A DNA stretch of 38,964 bases from Polaromonas sp. (GCA_028292045.1 JAQGMZ010000168.1:1-38964), one strand, 5' to 3'; positions 28,498 to 38,646 are shown, numbered from the stretch's first letter. The notes: generated by a model not told the origin, from the sequence alone. Numbers and translations: made by a program.

Positions 28498-28959
28498 TCA
28501 GTTCCGGTCGGCCCGGGCCTGGCGCGTGGTGCCCATGCCTGACGTGCCCATGGAACCCGAGCCGCCGCCAGTGGTGCTGGCGCTGCTGCCGCCGCTGGTC
28601 ATGCCCGAACCGGAGCCTGAACCCGTGGCCGTGCTGCCAGTGCCTGAGGTACCCGTTGCACCTGTCGTGCCAGTCATGCCTGACGTGCCCGTTGAACCCG
28701 ACGTTCCGGTCGTGCCCGTTGAGCCCGTTGTGCCCGTTGAGCCGGTGGTGCCGCCGGCAGCTGGCGAAGCGCCGGTGCCGGTGGTGCTGCCGGCAGCGCT
28801 GCTGGCACCCGGATTTGTGGCCGACTGGCCCCGGCCGCCGCTGTCGGTCGAAGTACCGCTGCCTGACGTGCCGGCGCCGGTTTGCGCATAGGCCAGTCCG
28901 AGACTGCCTGCCATGGCGGCCACGGTCAGGGCAGAGGCGATGGTTTTGAATGCTTTCAT
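28498..28959 (-). CDS. Secreted Gly/Thr/Ser-rich low-complexity protein with a Gly-X-Y tract
   Basis: Signal peptide MKAFKTIASALTVAAMAGSLGLAYAQ; tract GTTGSTGTTGSTGTTGTSGSTGTSGMTGTTGATGTSGTG; own terminator; SD-like AAGGAG near the start. Confidence 0.75.
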   Translation of the reverse strand: MKAFKTIASALTVAAMAGSLGLAYAQTGAGTSGSGTSTDSGGRGQSATNPGASSAAGSTTGTGASPAAGGTTGSTGTTGSTGTTGTSGSTGTSGMTGTTGATGTSGTGSTATGSGSGSGMTSGGSSASTTGGGSGSMGTSGMGTTRQARADRN

Positions 28960-29862: not shown

Positions 29863-32800
29863 TCAGGCCGACGGCTTGGCGCCCGCCGCCATGCGGACCG
29901 GCAAGGCATCGGCGCCTGACTGCTCGTTCAAGGTTTTGGCCTGCGCGGCGGCGTTTCTGCCGGCCACAAACGCATGGTCGGAGTTGTAGTACTCCCATTC
30001 GCTGTAGCGCCCCGCCAGGATGATGTTGGACTTGGCCACCCAGCTGCGAATGGTCTCGACATGCGCGGCGCGGTCGTGGTCGTACACCACATACGCATAC
30101 GGCATGTCCACCTGGTTGGCGGCCAAAACGGTGTCTTCCGCGGTGAACATGCCCACTTCGATGCACTCGCGAATGCAGCGGTCAATCAGTTCCTGGCCGT
30201 CGCACGGCAAGGGCTTGTACTCTGAATAGGTGATCTCGCAGGTCAAACCGAACCCGCCGGGCGCATTGCAATGCGGGCTGGCGTTGCCCTGCACGAAGAT
30301 GCGGTGGAACACCGTGTCCTCGGGGTAGTAGATCCAGTGCTTGTCGGTCAGCGCTTCGCGGCCGATGCCCAGGTTGACGCAGCGCACCGACACATGGCGC
30401 AGGCCGCGGGCCGCCGCCTTGACCGATGCCGGGGCTTCGTCGCCCATGGCGTCCACCAGCTTGGGCAGGGACATGGTGCTGATCAGGGTGTCGTAGCGGT
30501 AGCTGCGGCCGTCCGTCAGCGTGACGGTGCGGCACGAGGGCGACACGGTCTGCACTTCGGACTGCATCTCGACATCGCTCTCAAGCAAGGGCAGGAAGCC
30601 GTCCATCAGCGCCTGGAATCCGCCGCGCAGGGGATAGCCGAAGCGGGCGTTGGGGCCCATGGGCTTGGTGACCGGACGCAGCGCACCGTCGATCATTTCC
30701 TCCAGGTCGGGCATCGGCACGCGGCCGCCCAGCCACGAGGTTTCCATTTCAGTCAGCGGCACGGCCCAGAGTTTCTTGTTGTAGGGAATGGCAAAGTGCT
30801 TGGCCACGCCGGCGCCCCAGACCTTGTAGATGAACTCCTCGAAGTTCTTGGGCGCTGCCGACGTGCCGGACTTGGGCAGCACGCTGGTGACGGGGCTGCG
30901 GCCCGCCGAGGCGGCAATGGTGGCCGTGGCGGCGGAAGGCGCTGAGATAGGGGCGCCGGGCAGTTCTTTCCTGACCGGGCCGAAGCGCGCTTCGATAGCG
31001 CCGATCAGGCATTCCTTGAGCACTTCCGGGGGCAGGCCGTAAAGCGCGCCTTGAAACGGGTAGCGGGTGTAGACCTCCTTGCTGTAGATCCAGGCCTCGC
31101 GGTTCTGCCAGTGCATGTTGTCGCCCAGCAGCGTCTTGTACAGCTCCAGCACATAGTTATCGTTGGAAAACATGATGTGCCCGGCATAGTCGAAGGTGAA
31201 GCCGTTGTCGACGATCGAGCGGCACCAGCCGCCCACCGTGTCGGCTTTTTCCAGCAGCAGGCTGCCTTTGCCCAGATGGTACGAAGCCGCCAGCCCGGTC
31301 GGCCCGGCGCCCAGCACCACGGTCGAGTAGCTGACCGCTTCTCCGGCCGGGGCAAAGTCCGAATTGGCCGCCTCCTGGCTCCTGGCGGCGTCCGGCCGCA
31401 GGGGCAGCGCGCCAATCTGGGCATGAATCGCCTCGGCGGTCGCATCCCAGGACGTAGCCGCCACGATGGCCTGCATCTGCGCGGCCCGGCTGGCGGCCTG
31501 GTCCGCCGACTCGCCCAGCAAGGCTTCGCAGGCGTCAATGAACTCGAGCGCCGTGTCGGCAATCGGAATCACATGGCCGTAGGGCTCGGCCACGTCCCGG
31601 ATGCGGGTGCTGACGCAGGGCCGGCCGGCCGCCATGTATTCAAGCGTTTTGGTCGGGCTGATGAAGCGTGTCGCCTCGTTGAGGGCAAACGGCAGCAGGC
31701 ACACGTCCCAGCCCGCCATGAACTGCGGCAGGTCGTCGTAGCTTTGCTGGCCCAGCCAGTGGATGTTGCTGCGCATGGGCAGTTTGTCCGCGCTGATCTT
31801 GACCACCGGGCCCACCATGACGATTTGCCACTGCGGGTGGATATCGGCCATGGCGGCAATCAGTTCCAGGTCGATGCGTTCGTCGATCACGCCGCAATAG
31901 CCCAGCCGGGGGTGCGGCAGCGAAGCCTGCGCCGGATGATCGGCCAGGCCTGGCTGCATGGCGGCTGCAAAATGCGCCGCGTCCACGCTGCTTGAAAAAC
32001 AATGCACGTTGGCGTGGCGTTCACGTTTAGAACGAAACAGGCTCGGGCCGCCCGTCAGCACCAGGTCGGCCATCTGGTAGAGGGCGTTTTCGCGCTGGAT
32101 CAGCTGGCGCGGCGCGTTCATGAACGCGGACAGCTCGTCCATGCAGTCGTAGATCACCGAACTGGGGCTCAGGTTGCCCGCCAGCGGCAGGGCCATGGGT
32201 GTGTAAAACCAGATCAGGTAGTCGTCGATGCCCCGCTCGCGCAGGAAATCGGCCAGCTGGCTTTGCAGCACGGGCAGGTGGTCGTCGTGGAAACCCGCAA
32301 TGCTGCTGGTGGTGTGCGGCCGCAGCACTTCAATGTTGGGGGCTGGCGTCAGGTGCTCCAGGTAGTCTTCGCCGTTGGGCACCGGCTCCTCCATGAAAAT
32401 GATGCGGTAATGCCGGGCCAGGCGCGACAGCAGGTGCTGGGGCCGTTGATAAACAAAGTTCCAGCGCAGGTGTGAAAAGACAATGATGGTGGGCATGGCA
32501 GATCCTCTGGAGATAATTGATTTGGAAAGGCTGGAAACTTCCGCTGCAGGCCGCGGACCGCCGGGTAACTGTTTTTGCCAGCGTTGCAGCTGGTCGGCAT
32601 ATGGCTGGCACAGGACGCGCGCATAGGCGCCGTGCAGGGCGTCGGGGCGCGGCGCATCGACTTCCCACAAGCCGCTGTTGTGCCAGTGGGAAACATCGTC
32701 CCAGCCGTGCCGGTCGATGATCGGGTACAGGCAGATGCCTTCGAGCGGCATGCCGCGCGCCCGGCACAGCCCGATTTCATGGGCCACATCGCCAAGCCAC

Positions 32801-33768
32801 TCGGCCCGACCTTCGCCCACATGGCTGGTTTCCGCCAGCATCAGCGGGCGGCCGTAGCGCTGCCAGACCGGATCGAGCAGTTCGCTCAGCGGCTTGCGGC
32901 GCGGGTCGGCCAGGTGCCAGTGCAGCGGCTCGGCGCCCTGACCCTGGTAAGCCCACTGGTTGTCGTGGTAGTAATTGATCCCGACAATGTCGAGGTGGCG
33001 CATCGAGCCCCCCAGCTGCGGCTCGGCGCGGCCGCACAGCATGTCCCAGGCCTCGTAAATGCAGGCGCTGTGCCGGCGGGCCGCCTCTGCCGCCTCCGGC
33101 GGCGCATCGGATGGGGAAGACACATGGATCAGCGGGTCGCTGTGCATGAAACGCGCGCCCGCATCAATGCTGCCAATGGCCTCGCAGGACCGCAGGGCGG
33201 CGCGCACCAGCTGGATTTTCAGCGCAGGCCCGTCCGCCCAGGCCGGGCTTTTCGAGGCGTGCTGCATCAGGCCGGTGGCTGACAGGGCCCAGGCCAGAAA
33301 GGAAATTTCATTGATCGGCTGGTAGAAGCGCCGGCTGCCCGACACCTCGCGCAGGGCACTGGCGACCTTTCGGCTGAAGGCCGCAAAGCGCTGCACGAAG
33401 GCAGGCGACAGCAGGTCGATGTCGTCGGGCCAGCCGTAGTGCATGAGCGACCAGATCACCTCGATCCCGTGCTTTTCCGCCATTTCCGCCTGTTGTTGCA
33501 GGCGCTTCAAGCCGGCGGCGCCCTGCTGCTCGGTGATGCGCCAGCCGATGCTTTCCCGCACGGTGCGAATGCCGAACTTCTCGAGCAGGGCATAGTCGGC
33601 CTCGAGCTGCTGCCAATGCTGGTTGGCTTCATTCATCGACAGGGGCAGGCCGTTGCTGTTCACATGGTCGGCGCCTTCATAGCCCGCCATCCAGAATGAG
33701 CGAAACAAGCCCTCTTGCCGTGATGGCCGGTGCTTGAAACCTGCACTGAACAATGATGAATCTGCCAT
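29863..33768 (-). CDS. Three-module protein: clan GH-A-like glycosidase, GT4-like glycosyltransferase, FAD-dependent UDP-galactopyranose mutase/amine-oxidase-like module (1301 aa)
   Basis: N-module with NE (QPINEISF) and ET (LMLAETSHVGE) clan GH-A-like acids; mid-module FSHLRWNFVYQRPQHLLSRLARH...SPTKTLEYMAAGRPCVSTRI; C-module VVLGAGPTGLAASYHLGKGSLLLEKADTVGGWCRSI. Single uninterrupted frame. Confidence 0.85.
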   Translation of the reverse strand: MADSSLFSAGFKHRPSRQEGLFRSFWMAGYEGADHVNSNGLPLSMNEANQHWQQLEADYALLEKFGIRTVRESIGWRITEQQGAAGLKRLQQQAEMAEKHGIEVIWSLMHYGWPDDIDLLSPAFVQRFAAFSRKVASALREVSGSRRFYQPINEISFLAWALSATGLMQHASKSPAWADGPALKIQLVRAALRSCEAIGSIDAGARFMHSDPLIHVSSPSDAPPEAAEAARRHSACIYEAWDMLCGRAEPQLGGSMRHLDIVGINYYHDNQWAYQGQGAEPLHWHLADPRRKPLSELLDPVWQRYGRPLMLAETSHVGEGRAEWLGDVAHEIGLCRARGMPLEGICLYPIIDRHGWDDVSHWHNSGLWEVDAPRPDALHGAYARVLCQPYADQLQRWQKQLPGGPRPAAEVSSLSKSIISRGSAMPTIIVFSHLRWNFVYQRPQHLLSRLARHYRIIFMEEPVPNGEDYLEHLTPAPNIEVLRPHTTSSIAGFHDDHLPVLQSQLADFLRERGIDDYLIWFYTPMALPLAGNLSPSSVIYDCMDELSAFMNAPRQLIQRENALYQMADLVLTGGPSLFRSKRERHANVHCFSSSVDAAHFAAAMQPGLADHPAQASLPHPRLGYCGVIDERIDLELIAAMADIHPQWQIVMVGPVVKISADKLPMRSNIHWLGQQSYDDLPQFMAGWDVCLLPFALNEATRFISPTKTLEYMAAGRPCVSTRIRDVAEPYGHVIPIADTALEFIDACEALLGESADQAASRAAQMQAIVAATSWDATAEAIHAQIGALPLRPDAARSQEAANSDFAPAGEAVSYSTVVLGAGPTGLAASYHLGKGSLLLEKADTVGGWCRSIVDNGFTFDYAGHIMFSNDNYVLELYKTLLGDNMHWQNREAWIYSKEVYTRYPFQGALYGLPPEVLKECLIGAIEARFGPVRKELPGAPISAPSAATATIAASAGRSPVTSVLPKSGTSAAPKNFEEFIYKVWGAGVAKHFAIPYNKKLWAVPLTEMETSWLGGRVPMPDLEEMIDGALRPVTKPMGPNARFGYPLRGGFQALMDGFLPLLESDVEMQSEVQTVSPSCRTVTLTDGRSYRYDTLISTMSLPKLVDAMGDEAPASVKAAARGLRHVSVRCVNLGIGREALTDKHWIYYPEDTVFHRIFVQGNASPHCNAPGGFGLTCEITYSEYKPLPCDGQELIDRCIRECIEVGMFTAEDTVLAANQVDMPYAYVVYDHDRAAHVETIRSWVAKSNIILAGRYSEWEYYNSDHAFVAGRNAAAQAKTLNEQSGADALPVRMAAGAKPSA
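32494..32508 (-). promoter_or_regulatory. Internal Shine-Dalgarno plus ATG inside the first linker of the fusion ORF
   Basis: Minus strand AGAGGA-TCTGCC-ATG (MPTIIVFSHLRWNFVYQRPQHLL). Confidence 0.6.
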
Positions 33769-34182: not shown

Positions 34183-35505
34183 TCAGGCGACCCGCTGCCA
34201 GAACCACCAGGACGCGAGCAGGATCAGCACGAATGAGCCGCCGCGCACCACCACGCGGTGGTACCAGGGCCTGCCGACCAGCGCCTGCGACACCGCCACC
34301 CAGGCCAGCACGGCCACCAGCTGGCCGGCTTCGACGCCCAGGTTGAACCCGGCCAGCGCCCAGGGCAGCAGCCCGCCGGGCGCCGCAGCTTCCAGCAGCA
34401 GGCCGGCAAAGCCGAAACCGTGGACCAGGCCGAATACCAGCGCCAGCAGGTCCATGCGAAGCCAGCGCACGGGGCGCAGGTTCAGCAGCGCCGTCACTGC
34501 AATCGACACGGCAATCACCGGCTCGACCCAGGCGGGCGAAGCCTGCGTCAGGCCGAAGGTGGCCAGCATCAGCGTGATGGAATGGCCCAGCGTGAAGGCG
34601 GTCACGGTGCGCAGCAGGGCCAGCCAGGTCGCGCGGTTGGCATACGCTCCGCCGGCGGATGTTGCGCTTGCCAAGGCCGTTCGCCCGATGGGCGGGCTCA
34701 CCGCAAACGCCAGGCCGGGACGGCGGCGCAGGCTCAGCTGCAGGGGCAGCACCAGCGCCAGCAGGAAAGCCAGGTGGTCATAGCCTTCGAGCAAATGGTG
34801 CATGCCCAGGTTGAAATAGTCGCGCAGCGCAGACCAGCGGCCCGAAGGCAAGGCGCCCGGCCCGCCTGCCATGGCGCCGGCTCCCTGGCCCGTGGCGGCA
34901 CGCAGCGCCAGACTGCCCTGCTGGGGCGACACCGTGCTCAGCAAGTCATTGCCGCCGATGCGCCCGGCCACCAGCAGCCGGTGGGTCGAATCCTGGTCCT
35001 TGAGCAAGGTATAGCTCAATTGCAAGGCCTGTCCGGCCGGGCAGCGGGCAAGCGCTGCCGCACGGAAATAAACGCCGTCGCTGCGCCGCTCCAGGCCATC
35101 GGCCTGCCAGTCGAGCCTGCATCCGCCTGGCACTGCAGGAGCGGCTTGCGGCCCGCCGGCCGACCCAGGCAGCGCTTGCAGCCGGGCCGCGCTGTTGAGC
35201 AAGGCCAGCACGCCGGGTGTTGCCGCCCTGGCTTCGCCCCAGGTCACGCGGGCATCTGCGTTCGCGTCGATCGGCACCACCAGGTCCAGGTCGCGAATCG
35301 CCACCGCCAACATGAATTTGAACTCGCCGGTGTCCGGAAGCGTCGGCGCTTCAAGCTGCTGCACGTCCAGGTAGGCATCGCTCCCCTTGTGCGCCTGCGC
35401 CGGGCCGAAAGCCAGCCCCAGCGCCAGCAGGCCGGCGACCTGGATGGCCTGGATGGCCTGGATGGCCTGGATGGCCTGGATCAGGCCATGCAGCCGGCGC
35501 ATCAT
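34183..35505 (-). CDS. HupE/UreJ-like membrane protein with secreted N-terminal domain
   Basis: Signal-like N-terminus ending AQAHKGSDAYL; C-terminal GMHHLLEGYDHLAFLLALVLPLQLSLRRRPG, TVTAFTLGHSITLMLATFGL, LALVFGLVHGFGFAGLL. Confidence 0.88.
   Translation of the reverse strand: MMRRLHGLIQAIQAIQAIQAIQVAGLLALGLAFGPAQAHKGSDAYLDVQQLEAPTLPDTGEFKFMLAVAIRDLDLVVPIDANADARVTWGEARAATPGVLALLNSAARLQALPGSAGGPQAAPAVPGGCRLDWQADGLERRSDGVYFRAAALARCPAGQALQLSYTLLKDQDSTHRLLVAGRIGGNDLLSTVSPQQGSLALRAATGQGAGAMAGGPGALPSGRWSALRDYFNLGMHHLLEGYDHLAFLLALVLPLQLSLRRRPGLAFAVSPPIGRTALASATSAGGAYANRATWLALLRTVTAFTLGHSITLMLATFGLTQASPAWVEPVIAVSIAVTALLNLRPVRWLRMDLLALVFGLVHGFGFAGLLLEAAAPGGLLPWALAGFNLGVEAGQLVAVLAWVAVSQALVGRPWYHRVVVRGGSFVLILLASWWFWQRVA
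35439..35481. repeat. 9-bp tandem repeat (CCTGGATGG)n, about 4.8 copies
   Basis: cctggatgg cctggatgg cctggatgg cctggatgg cctggat, encoding IQA repeats on the minus strand. Confidence 0.97.
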
Positions 35506-36695
35506 TTGGCAGCCTTGGCGGAGGACGCCACCGGCACCAGCCGCGCATCGTGCAGGCCGGCAGCCCGGATGGCGGTTTCTATTTCTGCCAGCGCAGCGCC
35601 GTCATTGGCCAGCCGGGCGCTCTGCAGGGCGGCCCACCAGTCCAGCGGCTCGCGCTGGAGCTGCAGGTTGCTGCGGGCGAATCGCAGCGCGGCGGGCCCA
35701 TCGGCGTCCAGCCACAGGGCGGCCAGCGCCAGCTCGCGGCCATGCAGCGCCGCGTCGTCGCCGCGCCTTTTCAGCTCATCGACCCGGGTCTGCAGCACCT
35801 GGCGCGCGCCAGTCCAGCGCGCATCGCCCAGGCGTTTCCAGGCGGCTGCGCGGCGCAGCAGCACGGCGTCGGTTTCCGGCAGGGGCGCCAGGATTTGCAG
35901 CGCCTGCCCGGTTTTTCCGGTGCGCAGCAGCAGGTCGCTGAAGGCTATGGCGGTGTACAGGTCGTGCTCGGCTTTCAGGCTGCCCGCATAACTGGCGCCA
36001 GCCGCTGCGTCCTGGCCGGCGCGCTCCTGGCTTTCGGCCAGCAGCGACAGCAGCCAGCTGCGCTGGCCTGGCTCGGTGGTCTGGCTGATCAGGGCCTGCA
36101 GCCCCTGCCCTGCTTGTTGCTGGCCGCCCTGCAGCGACCGGGTTTCCAGCCGGCAGGCCTCGGCATACAGCGACTGGCCGGCGCGCGCCACGGCATCGCA
36201 TGCATCCAGCGCTTGGGCATAGCGGGCGGACAGCCGCTCCAGCGATGCCAGGTTGAGCCAGCCCTGGGCATGGCCCGGGGCGCGCGACAACGCCGACGCC
36301 AGCACGGCGCGGGATGCGGCAAATTCGTGCCGGCCCTGCTGCACCGTGGCCTGCAGCACGGCCAGGTCGACCGGTGCTTCGGGCCGGTCCCACCAGGGCG
36401 CCAGCACCGCCTGGGCGCGCCCCCAGTAACGGGTGTCGCCGGTCTGGCGGGCCACGGAAATGGCCTCCCTGGCCTGCAGCGCGGCGGTCCGCACGTCTGT
36501 TGTCGCCGGTTTGGCAAGCGGCATGGCGCCCGGCGGCACAGGCCGGTCATGGGTCACCGCAGGCAGCACTTCCAGCAGGTCTTCATCGCGCTGGGGCTGG
36601 AGCGCGGCTGCCGCCAGCGCAGGCATTTGCCCGGCGGCCAGCAGGCCCGCCAACGCCACAGCCCTGGCCAGATCGGGCAGTTTGAAAACAGGCAT
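35502..36695 (-). CDS. Secreted TPR-like repeat protein
   Basis: Signal peptide ARAVALAGLLAAGQMPALAAA; Ala/Leu-rich helical repeats (APGHAQGWLNLASLERLSARYAQALDACDAVARAGQ). 4-nt overlap (ATGA) with the HupE-like gene. Confidence 0.8.
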   Translation of the reverse strand: MPVFKLPDLARAVALAGLLAAGQMPALAAAALQPQRDEDLLEVLPAVTHDRPVPPGAMPLAKPATTDVRTAALQAREAISVARQTGDTRYWGRAQAVLAPWWDRPEAPVDLAVLQATVQQGRHEFAASRAVLASALSRAPGHAQGWLNLASLERLSARYAQALDACDAVARAGQSLYAEACRLETRSLQGGQQQAGQGLQALISQTTEPGQRSWLLSLLAESQERAGQDAAAGASYAGSLKAEHDLYTAIAFSDLLLRTGKTGQALQILAPLPETDAVLLRRAAAWKRLGDARWTGARQVLQTRVDELKRRGDDAALHGRELALAALWLDADGPAALRFARSNLQLQREPLDWWAALQSARLANDGAALAEIETAIRAAGLHDARLVPVASSAKAAK

Positions 36696-36783
36696 GGTGG
36701 CGTCTTTCGTGGTTGGAGCCGTCGGAGGTCAAATGATTTGCATGCTGCGGCTTGAAAAGCCAGCGGCTCGCCAGAATACACAT

Positions 36784-36825
36784 AAAAAAAGCCCGGCAAT
36801 TGAGGATTTTCAATTGCCGGGCTTT
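36784..36825 (-). terminator. Perfect 16-bp-stem intrinsic terminator downstream of the small lipoprotein gene
   Basis: AAAGCCCGGCAATTGA-GGATTT-TCAATTGCCGGGCTTT; A-run on the plus strand gives a T-run on the minus strand. Confidence 0.92.
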
Positions 36826-36837
36826 GCCAGACCGCCG

Positions 36838-37095
36838 TTAAGGCAGCGGTGCGGAGTCCGCCTCGTCGCTGGCCACCAGCGTCAGCGCGTTGATGTCGAC
36901 CGGCTCGTTGATGTCATTGTTCCCGGCGAACAGGCCGGTGATGTAGCCTGACACATCGGTGATTGTCTGGGCGACAGGCCCGGGAGGCGCGCCCCCGCTG
37001 CCGGCGTTGTCGGCATGGTCGCTGCCGCCGCAACCTGCCAGCAGCGCGGCGGACAGCGCCGCAGCGGCCATCAGTCTTGAGTTCATGTTCAGCAT
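36838..37095 (-). CDS. Small lipoprotein (85 aa)
   Basis: MNSRLMAAAALSAALLAGCGGSDHADNAG: lipobox LLAGC; immediately downstream of the DUF4331 gene, followed by a terminator. Confidence 0.8.
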   Translation of the reverse strand: MLNMNSRLMAAAALSAALLAGCGGSDHADNAGSGGAPPGPVAQTITDVSGYITGLFAGNNDINEPVDINALTLVASDEADSAPLP

Positions 37096-37119
37096 GATGT
37101 TTCCTTTGATGCCCGTTGT

Positions 37120-38646
37120 TTACTTGGCGCCTGGCAACGGTGTGTTGAGGTACGGAAAGACCTGCTTGAAGTCAGTGGCGCTGGCGCGCACGCCGTCGAC
37201 AAATGGAATATTGCCGGCGGGCGCGTCGGACGGCTTGCAGCCGACCTTCAGCGCATCGGCATCGCCCGTCAGCACGCACAGCGCGCCCATGGCCACACGC
37301 AGCGACACGTCCACCACGTCGTCGCCCAGGCGGCGTCCGTTCGGGAAGCCCGAGGCATCGCCCGCGGCCACGCCCAGGGAGTTTTGCTGCGCCGCCGGCT
37401 TGGCGGCAATCGACGTGTTCAAACGCAGCATTTCAGACAGCGGACCGCCGACGCCCAGGCCGGTCACGTTCGCCGGGCGGTTGACCGTGGGCAGGCCGGT
37501 CAGGAAAGCGGTCATCAGGTCGGTGCGCGGGAAGTTGGTCGGCGCCTTCACGCCAAACAGGCTTTCCAGCAACGCGGGCAGCGTCGGGTTGGTCACATAG
37601 TCGGCAAAGTTGGTGGCGTCGCTGGCCGGCTTGCTGCCGTTGAACTTGTCCTTGTCTTTCAGGCCGATCACCACCTCATTGACCAGGGGCATGCCCAGAC
37701 GGGACACCTGCGTCCAGGCGCCGCCGGCTTTTTCGCTGGCCTGCAGGCCGGACTTGGGCGCGCCGTTCAGCAGGCGGCCCTGGCGCAGGCTGGCCGTGGT
37801 CCAGCCGCCAATGATTTTTTCACTGCCTTGCGTCAGGCAGCTGGCGGGCACTTCGAGCGCCAGCGAGGTCACGTTCTTGTTGTCCAGCTCGCCGAACTTG
37901 CCGGCGGCCGCCGCATTGGCCTCATTGGTGATGAAGGCGGCGGGCGCATTCACCAGGTCGAAGATGGCGCCGAGGTTGACTGAGAACGCTTCCTTGCGCT
38001 GGCCGACAAATACCTTGCCCGGTGTGGCGCAGCCCGGAATGTTGATGGTCTGGATGTAGGAATTGGCATAAGCCTCATAGCTGCCGCCCGGAAACGTCTT
38101 GGTGCCGATGTAGTCGATCGGCTTGCCGAAGGTGTTGCCGCCGCCGGTCGTGGTGACCGCCGCGCGGGTGCCGCCGCGGCGGTCGCCGCGCACCACGTTG
38201 AGGGTGAAGCTTTCGGTGTAGCTCAGTGGTGCGTTGGGCGAATTGGTCACGGCGCCGGCCTGGCGCAAGGGGATGGCAACATTTTTGCCGCCGATGGGCA
38301 GGGTGATGCCGTTGCCGTTGTTGGCCAGTTCGTTCTTGAACTGGAACTGGAAGGTCAGGTCTTCCTTGCCGTCGCCGTTGTTGTCCACATGGATTTCATA
38401 CAGCGCGTTCGGATCGAGCGAGAAATAATTGGGGCCGCCGTAGGCATCCTGCAGCGGCAGGTAGTTGGCGATCAGCGTGACGTTGCTGGCCTTGTCCGTT
38501 TCGTAGCTGTTGAACATGTAGAAATCGGTACCGTCCACTTTCGGGGCGGTGGTGATGAACGGCGCTTCCCGGTGGCTTGAAGCCATGGCGCTACCGGCGG
38601 CTAGCAAAAGGCATGCGCTGGCGATATGCCCGATTTTCATTTTCAT
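37120..38646 (-). CDS. DUF4331 domain-containing secreted protein
   Basis: MKMKIGHIASACLLLAAGSAMASSHREAPFITTAPKVDGTDFYMFNSYE; SSHREAP and DFYMF are characteristic; SD AGGAGA upstream of the ATG. Confidence 0.92.
   Translation of the reverse strand: MKMKIGHIASACLLLAAGSAMASSHREAPFITTAPKVDGTDFYMFNSYETDKASNVTLIANYLPLQDAYGGPNYFSLDPNALYEIHVDNNGDGKEDLTFQFQFKNELANNGNGITLPIGGKNVAIPLRQAGAVTNSPNAPLSYTESFTLNVVRGDRRGGTRAAVTTTGGGNTFGKPIDYIGTKTFPGGSYEAYANSYIQTINIPGCATPGKVFVGQRKEAFSVNLGAIFDLVNAPAAFITNEANAAAAGKFGELDNKNVTSLALEVPASCLTQGSEKIIGGWTTASLRQGRLLNGAPKSGLQASEKAGGAWTQVSRLGMPLVNEVVIGLKDKDKFNGSKPASDATNFADYVTNPTLPALLESLFGVKAPTNFPRTDLMTAFLTGLPTVNRPANVTGLGVGGPLSEMLRLNTSIAAKPAAQQNSLGVAAGDASGFPNGRRLGDDVVDVSLRVAMGALCVLTGDADALKVGCKPSDAPAGNIPFVDGVRASATDFKQVFPYLNTPLPGAK

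Follow-up and report, generated by a model that had tools for sequence, protein, structure and literature searches.

A three-enzyme gene of Polaromonas as the fused form of a widespread cassette predicted to make a galactofuranose-containing product

Can a single bacterial gene encode a glycosidase, a glycosyltransferase and a sugar-nucleotide flavoenzyme in one chain, and what would the three enzymes make together? The question is raised by a 38,964-nucleotide stretch of DNA from Polaromonas sp. (GCA_028292045.1 JAQGMZ010000168.1:1-38964; hereafter, the window), in which a 1301-aa open reading frame (ORF) joins a GH1-like glycoside hydrolase (GH), a GT4-type glycosyltransferase (GT) and a UDP-galactopyranose mutase (UGM) of eukaryotic type (Table 1). 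We consider it reasonably probable that this gene is a fused version of a three-enzyme cassette found in many bacteria, which makes a product containing galactofuranose (Galf), probably in a stress or survival response.

A preliminary description of the window had placed three enzyme classes in one ORF over the same span. The frame was found there, intact from its ATG to its stop codon, yet on the minus strand; the plus-strand frame over these positions is interrupted by stops. The motifs quoted at the time (QRPQHLL, SPTKTLEYMAAGRPCVS, VGGWCRSI, YNKKLW and GYPLRGGFQALMDG) are all present in the translation, the module limits lie near those proposed, and the three enzyme classes were upheld (GH1-like, GT4 and UGM). 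The source genome assembly is 81% complete and comprises 279 contigs. The same single frame was detected in orthologues from Polaromonas glacialis, Polaromonas CG9_12 and CG_9.7, and other genera, including isolates, the nearest orthologues being those of P. glacialis R3-9 and other Polaromonas. The ratio of nonsynonymous to synonymous substitution rates (dN/dS) against Polaromonas orthologues was 0.22-0.28 for the GH, 0.12-0.15 for the GT and 0.07-0.14 for the UGM module (its insert excluded), which shows purifying selection on each of the three; the GH-GT linker evolves fast. Because orthologues in isolates share the single frame and every module is under purifying selection, the fused frame is real, and a sequencing accident, a frameshift or another assembly artefact was ruled out.

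UGMs convert UDP-galactopyranose (UDP-Galp) to UDP-Galf by a flavin nucleophile mechanism. The C-terminal module carries the GxGxxG FAD-binding motif and the UGM fold; its nearest solved relatives by sequence are the UGMs of Trypanosoma cruzi and Aspergillus fumigatus (near 3e-46 in the PDB, with 25-27% identity to eukaryotic UGMs), and the top 34 matches of its predicted structure were all eukaryotic UGMs (about 1e-30), protoporphyrinogen oxidases following about 10 orders of magnitude later (near 1e-19). At the 18 active-site positions of A. fumigatus UGM (AfUGM) that were compared, the window protein is identical throughout, and each of these positions is kept in 85-87 of the 87 family members. 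All eleven AfUGM residues contacting the uracil, diphosphate and Galp of the substrate, namely Y104, F106, Q107, F158, R182, N207, Y317, R327, Y419, Y453 and N457 (PMC3624792), have identical counterparts, and H63, F66, R91, N163, W167, W315 and R447 are likewise identical. R1016, R1156 and H864 (AfUGM R182, R327 and loop residue H63) are invariant in 87/87 members, and the two arginines are essential in AfUGM (PMC3893270). Among the flavin contacts, AfUGM S461 is replaced by Ala and G456 falls in an alignment gap. More distant flavoproteins of the PRK07208 type keep the core arginines and do not have Q107, N163 and N207. Active-site residues and fold ranking together excluded a protoporphyrinogen or amine oxidase and sustained both the UGM identity and the galactofuranose direction suggested earlier. 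The module thus shares with the eukaryotic UGMs (A. fumigatus UgmA and T. cruzi UGM; PDB 3ute, 4dsg) the fold, FAD motif, histidine loop, both essential arginines and the uracil, diphosphate and Galp contacts, but is bacterial, fused behind a GT, has an A-G-H loop and an insert at residues 930-970, and is far from identical in sequence. The canonical bacterial Glf (PF03275) is only distantly related: no match to PF03275 was found in the window module at E below 1, whereas the Azospirillum Glf matches it at 1e-80.

The middle module scored 50.3 bits on Pfam Glyco_trans_1_4, above the cut-off of 27, in agreement with the GT4-like assignment made before. It aligned over most of its length with TuaH, the glycosyltransferase of teichuronic acid biosynthesis (NF047676), with which it shares a GT-B, GT4-type domain; the window protein scored 78.6 on that model, however, far under the cut-off of 550 for a TuaH equivalog, and TuaH serves a different pathway.

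The N-terminal module scored 20.1 on Pfam GH1 against a gathering cut-off of 22.6, and relatives fused to an RmlD-type reductase scored 34-49 bits. A profile of 38 sequences matched GH1 beta-glucosidase structures (best 4.6e-30), and GH1 structures were the top fold matches of the AlphaFold model (predicted local distance difference test, pLDDT, 90; template modelling score about 0.7). N153-E154 and E313 are invariant across the 38 sequences, as are R71, H110, N265, Y267 and W356, and the two glutamates adjoin strands 148-152 and 309-313 of the model, at the barrel-strand ends expected for clan GH-A. As judged from alignment and model, the module is a divergent GH1-like glycosidase of the retaining type with both catalytic glutamates, which upholds the proposed clan GH-A membership; catalytic residues are thus kept in both the GH and the UGM modules. 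In common with GH1 beta-glucosidases (e.g., PDB 4hz8, 1ug6) it has the fold, both catalytic glutamates and flanking residues, but it is shorter, 14-18% identical by structure and, taken alone, below the Pfam cut-off.

The distribution of the cassette was surveyed in 85,462 species genomes, which yielded 350 candidate relatives; locus counts below are from the best 80 loci unless another total is given. GH-GT-UGM formed one ORF in about 60/80 loci, always in this domain order, across roughly 30 beta- and gammaproteobacterial genera (Burkholderiales, Nitrosomonadales, Enterobacterales, Xanthomonadales, Shewanella and Rheinheimera). The remaining loci had GT-UGM plus a separate GH, or plus a GH fused to an RmlD-type reductase (Noviherbaspirillum, Steroidobacter). 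In one Polaromonas metagenome-assembled genome (MAG) and some Nitrosospira, the GT-UGM ORF is separate from the GH, so that close relatives may differ in having the fused or the split form. The three genes are separate in Skermanella, Mesorhizobium and Chryseobacterium; GT-Glf is fused and accompanied by GH in Azospirillum, Gloeothece and Sphingobium; GH-GT is fused and accompanied by Glf in Comamonas and relatives. Altogether, GT, UGM and GH stood next to one another, or were combined by four kinds of fusion, in Proteobacteria, Cyanobacteria, Bacteroidota and one Acidobacteriota MAG, and Deinococcota had GT with Glf. The fusion, first regarded as singular, is therefore widespread and not unique, and the unfused trio has an even broader distribution. 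At a loose cut-off, roughly 8% of sampled genomes held at least one module relative (Burkholderiales 27/349, Pseudomonadota 31/399). Escherichia coli was considered as a carrier and rejected, since no DNA matched the Escherichia sp. copy. For one large set of GTs the UGM slot was occupied by the eukaryotic type, and for the remaining GTs by canonical Glf (as in Azospirillum, Comamonas, Gloeothece and Skermanella, among others); the two types never shared a locus. Exchange of the eukaryotic-type UGM for the very different Glf suggests that UDP-Galf supply is the required step, and this replacement is the best argument that the cassette needs UDP-Galf.

Several loci showed further variation. In five loci from several phyla (L112, L116, L108, L102, L103), an RmlD-type reductase follows the GH1-like domain at its C-terminus, possibly adding a further nucleotide-sugar step to the pathway. 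On a 57-kb plasmid of Chryseobacterium oryzae (L109:7959-11282), the separate GT-Glf-GH trio has conjugative transposon genes as well as a Y-family polymerase in its vicinity, so mobile DNA can carry the cassette. On rhizobial plasmids (L146, L150, L154), GT-Glf is followed by very large genes annotated as 'glycosyltransferase' (over 1000 aa), which suggests yet other fusions. The source genome itself has a second, diverged cassette GT (57% identical; contig C155, L143:1969-3402) behind a short remnant (NFWIGAFEGADHVN) of a GH frame. This GT groups with the Comamonadaceae clade of fused GH-GT plus separate Glf, and the short contig ends soon after.

An internal start was found at the GT boundary. 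Each of the 61 trimodular ORFs analysed has an ATG no more than 8 codons from the GT start, and in 58/61 it is preceded by at least 4 nt of Shine-Dalgarno identity, ending mostly 5-7 nt before the ATG. When one locus per genus was counted, the match was present in 27/29 versus 16% at other in-frame ATGs of the same ORFs (p = 2e-18). The window signal reads AGAGGA-TCTGCC-ATG (32508-32494). The codons that bear the Shine-Dalgarno sequence vary (RG, EG, QG, KE, QE, EE), which places the conservation at the nucleotide rather than the protein level. The conserved signal and ATG suggest two products and not the single chain first envisaged; the locus probably makes an 877-aa GT-UGM protein by predicted internal initiation in addition to the 1301-aa chain. 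The fused frame may have arisen by loss of a stop codon between a GH gene and a GT-UGM gene, with internal initiation kept.

A link to stress was detected in Alphaproteobacteria. The EcfG consensus of their general stress response (PhyR-NepR) is matched by GGAAC-N16/17-NGTT (PMC3892343, PMC7083833, PMC6599016), and this element was present upstream of the GT or first gene in 18/26 alphaproteobacterial loci (about 0.2 expected), comprising 8/12 initially and 10/14 in a replication set (0.1 expected by shuffling). Several of the 26 loci are closely related, so the effective number is lower. Tiles of the same DNA contained the element in 3.4% of cases (p = 1e-19), and loci of other taxa in 1/84, so regulon membership does not apply to the window gene. 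Mn-catalase genes, which adjoin several cassette loci, were counted for the stress link. In Sphingomonas melonis, #1750 ('Glycosyltransferase') and #1751 ('Glycosidases') are EcfG-dependent (PMC6599016) and might be genes of this cassette.

The data are consistent with the following scheme. The C-terminal UGM would convert UDP-Galp to UDP-Galf, the GT4 module would most likely take UDP-Galf as donor and pass Galf to an acceptor, and the GH1-like module would trim, remodel or transglycosylate the acceptor or the product by retaining chemistry. The fused frame would have been created when the stop separating GH from GT-UGM was lost, and the retained internal ribosome site would yield both the 1301-aa and the 877-aa proteins. 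Several observations weigh against this scheme. UDP-Galf is suggested as the GT donor solely by the partner enzyme. Beyond GH2 in 19/80 loci, no common neighbour pointed to the acceptor. Some genomes have a GH, a UGM or a GT gene on its own, which shows that the three need not occur together. A G-G-H histidine loop has been described as peculiar to the eukaryotic UGMs (PMC3624792), and the window protein reads A862-G863-H864 at this place; the module is therefore best called a UGM whose active site is of eukaryotic type, outside the eukaryotic group itself. Finally, no EcfG-type promoter was found in the Polaromonas loci; the stress evidence comes from Alphaproteobacteria, and a stress role in Polaromonas would be an extrapolation.

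Other explanations were considered for the modules. SFR2 is a GH1 enzyme that remodels galactolipids in frozen plants, and the GH1-like module might similarly act in this pathway as a transglycosidase, assembling the product from a glycosyl donor, and not as a hydrolase. Both glutamates are retained, a cytosolic hydrolase next to a synthase would otherwise be wasteful, and other GH families (GH2, GH43-like) have been recruited too, but the closest relatives in sequence and fold are ordinary beta-glycosidases, and we regard this role as rather unlikely. It is still less probable that the flavoprotein module is a UGM relative acting on another UDP-sugar (e.g., UDP-arabinopyranose or UDP-GalNAc), with another furanoside or modified sugar as the product. 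The UGM assignment is a sequence-level one, and the RmlD-type reductase fused to GH in several cassettes means that another nucleotide sugar may take part; however, the complete set of AfUGM Galp and uracil contacts, the canonical Glf in the same slot in many lineages and the presence of galT and galK in one cassette all speak for UDP-Galp.

The fusion itself could be a neutral read-through of neighbouring genes, with GH and GT-UGM working as separate enzymes and the joint frame having no functional meaning. The conserved internal Shine-Dalgarno sequence and ATG, the alternation of fused and split forms in close relatives and the fast-evolving GH-GT linker would all fit this explanation, but retention of the fused frame in so many loci and genera and the constant GH-GT-UGM order leave it improbable, on a par with the transglycosidase proposal. 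The structure model of GT-UGM had a predicted template modelling score of 0.52 with disordered linkers, so no module interface is claimed.

Table 1. Features of the fused gene in the window (read from 33768 to 29863; stop codon included)
Feature	Position	Strand	Basis
Whole fused gene GH-GT-UGM, 1301 aa	29863..33768	-	ORF call; single-frame orthologues
GH1-like (clan GH-A) divergent glycosidase module, residues 1-400	32569..33768	-	Domain searches, fold model
Putative acid/base E154 of GH module	33307-33309	-	Invariant in alignment
Putative nucleophile E313 of GH module	32830-32832	-	Invariant in alignment
GH/GT linker, variable, residues 401-424	32497..32568	-	Internal-start analysis; dN/dS comparison
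Shine-Dalgarno-like AGAGGA within fused frame	32503..32508	-	
Internal ATG, Met425; predicted second start of 877-aa GT-UGM protein	32494..32496	-	
TuaH-like GT4 glycosyltransferase module, residues 425-790	31399..32496	-	Domain searches
GT/UGM linker, residues 791-811, predicted disordered, without internal Met start	31336..31398	-	Structure model
Eukaryotic-type UGM module, residues 812-1280	29929..31335	-	Sequence and structure comparison
R1016 of UGM module, counterpart of AfUGM R182	30721-30723	-	
R1156 of UGM module, counterpart of AfUGM R327	30301-30303	-	
Low-complexity insert in UGM module, residues 930-970, predicted disordered	30859..30981	-	PDB alignment, structure model

The neighbours in the window (HupE/UreJ, DUF4331, a Y-family polymerase, an alpha/beta hydrolase, a Na+/H+ antiporter, phosphoenolpyruvate carboxylase, porphobilinogen deaminase and similar genes) confirm for this stretch that the fused gene stands away from polysaccharide operons. 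Upstream of it, HupE/UreJ_2, an unassigned 397-aa protein and DUF4331 lie in a row (34183-38646, minus strand), and a HupE-like gene is also found immediately upstream of the fused gene in another Polaromonas (L026). A 153-aa Gly/Ser/Thr-rich low-complexity protein, signal-peptide-like and without a Pfam match, is encoded at 28498-28959 (minus strand). Among cassette loci, optional neighbours were GH2, GH43-like enzymes, an ABC exporter, galT with galK (located in the Methylomagnum cassette) and Mn-catalase.

No description of the fusion or the cassette was found in the open-access literature, subscription papers being outside that search, so that an earlier description is possible. The nearest comparison in the literature is the pamABC galactan locus of Kingella kingae (PMC12269835), which likewise combines a UGM with Galf transferases and yields a Galf product but is unfused, uses GT111 and GT2 transferases and has no GH module. 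No NCBIfam model names the protein, the best matches being 'hypothetical protein' models and TuaH far under its cut-off, and relatives are publicly annotated as 'FAD-dependent oxidoreductase' or 'NAD(P)-binding protein'.

Bacterial galactofuranose is familiar chiefly from lipopolysaccharides, capsules and the mycobacterial cell wall. The cassette described here is a self-contained set of three enzymes, mostly outside polysaccharide operons and without a specific name in public annotation. In its widest form the proposal would be that of a cross-phylum, sometimes plasmid-borne general-stress Galf cassette, in which two highly dissimilar UGM classes are interchanged and nested 1301/877-aa proteins are made from a conserved internal ribosome-binding site, for a new protective galactofuranosyl conjugate; we put this forward tentatively, as conceivable but short of probable. 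The conserved internal start would offer a compact model of how a gene fusion advances while the original second product persists. The findings predict that a Galf compound is made under stress by many environmental bacteria, and that bacteria possess a class of UGM with the active site of the fungal and protozoan enzymes.

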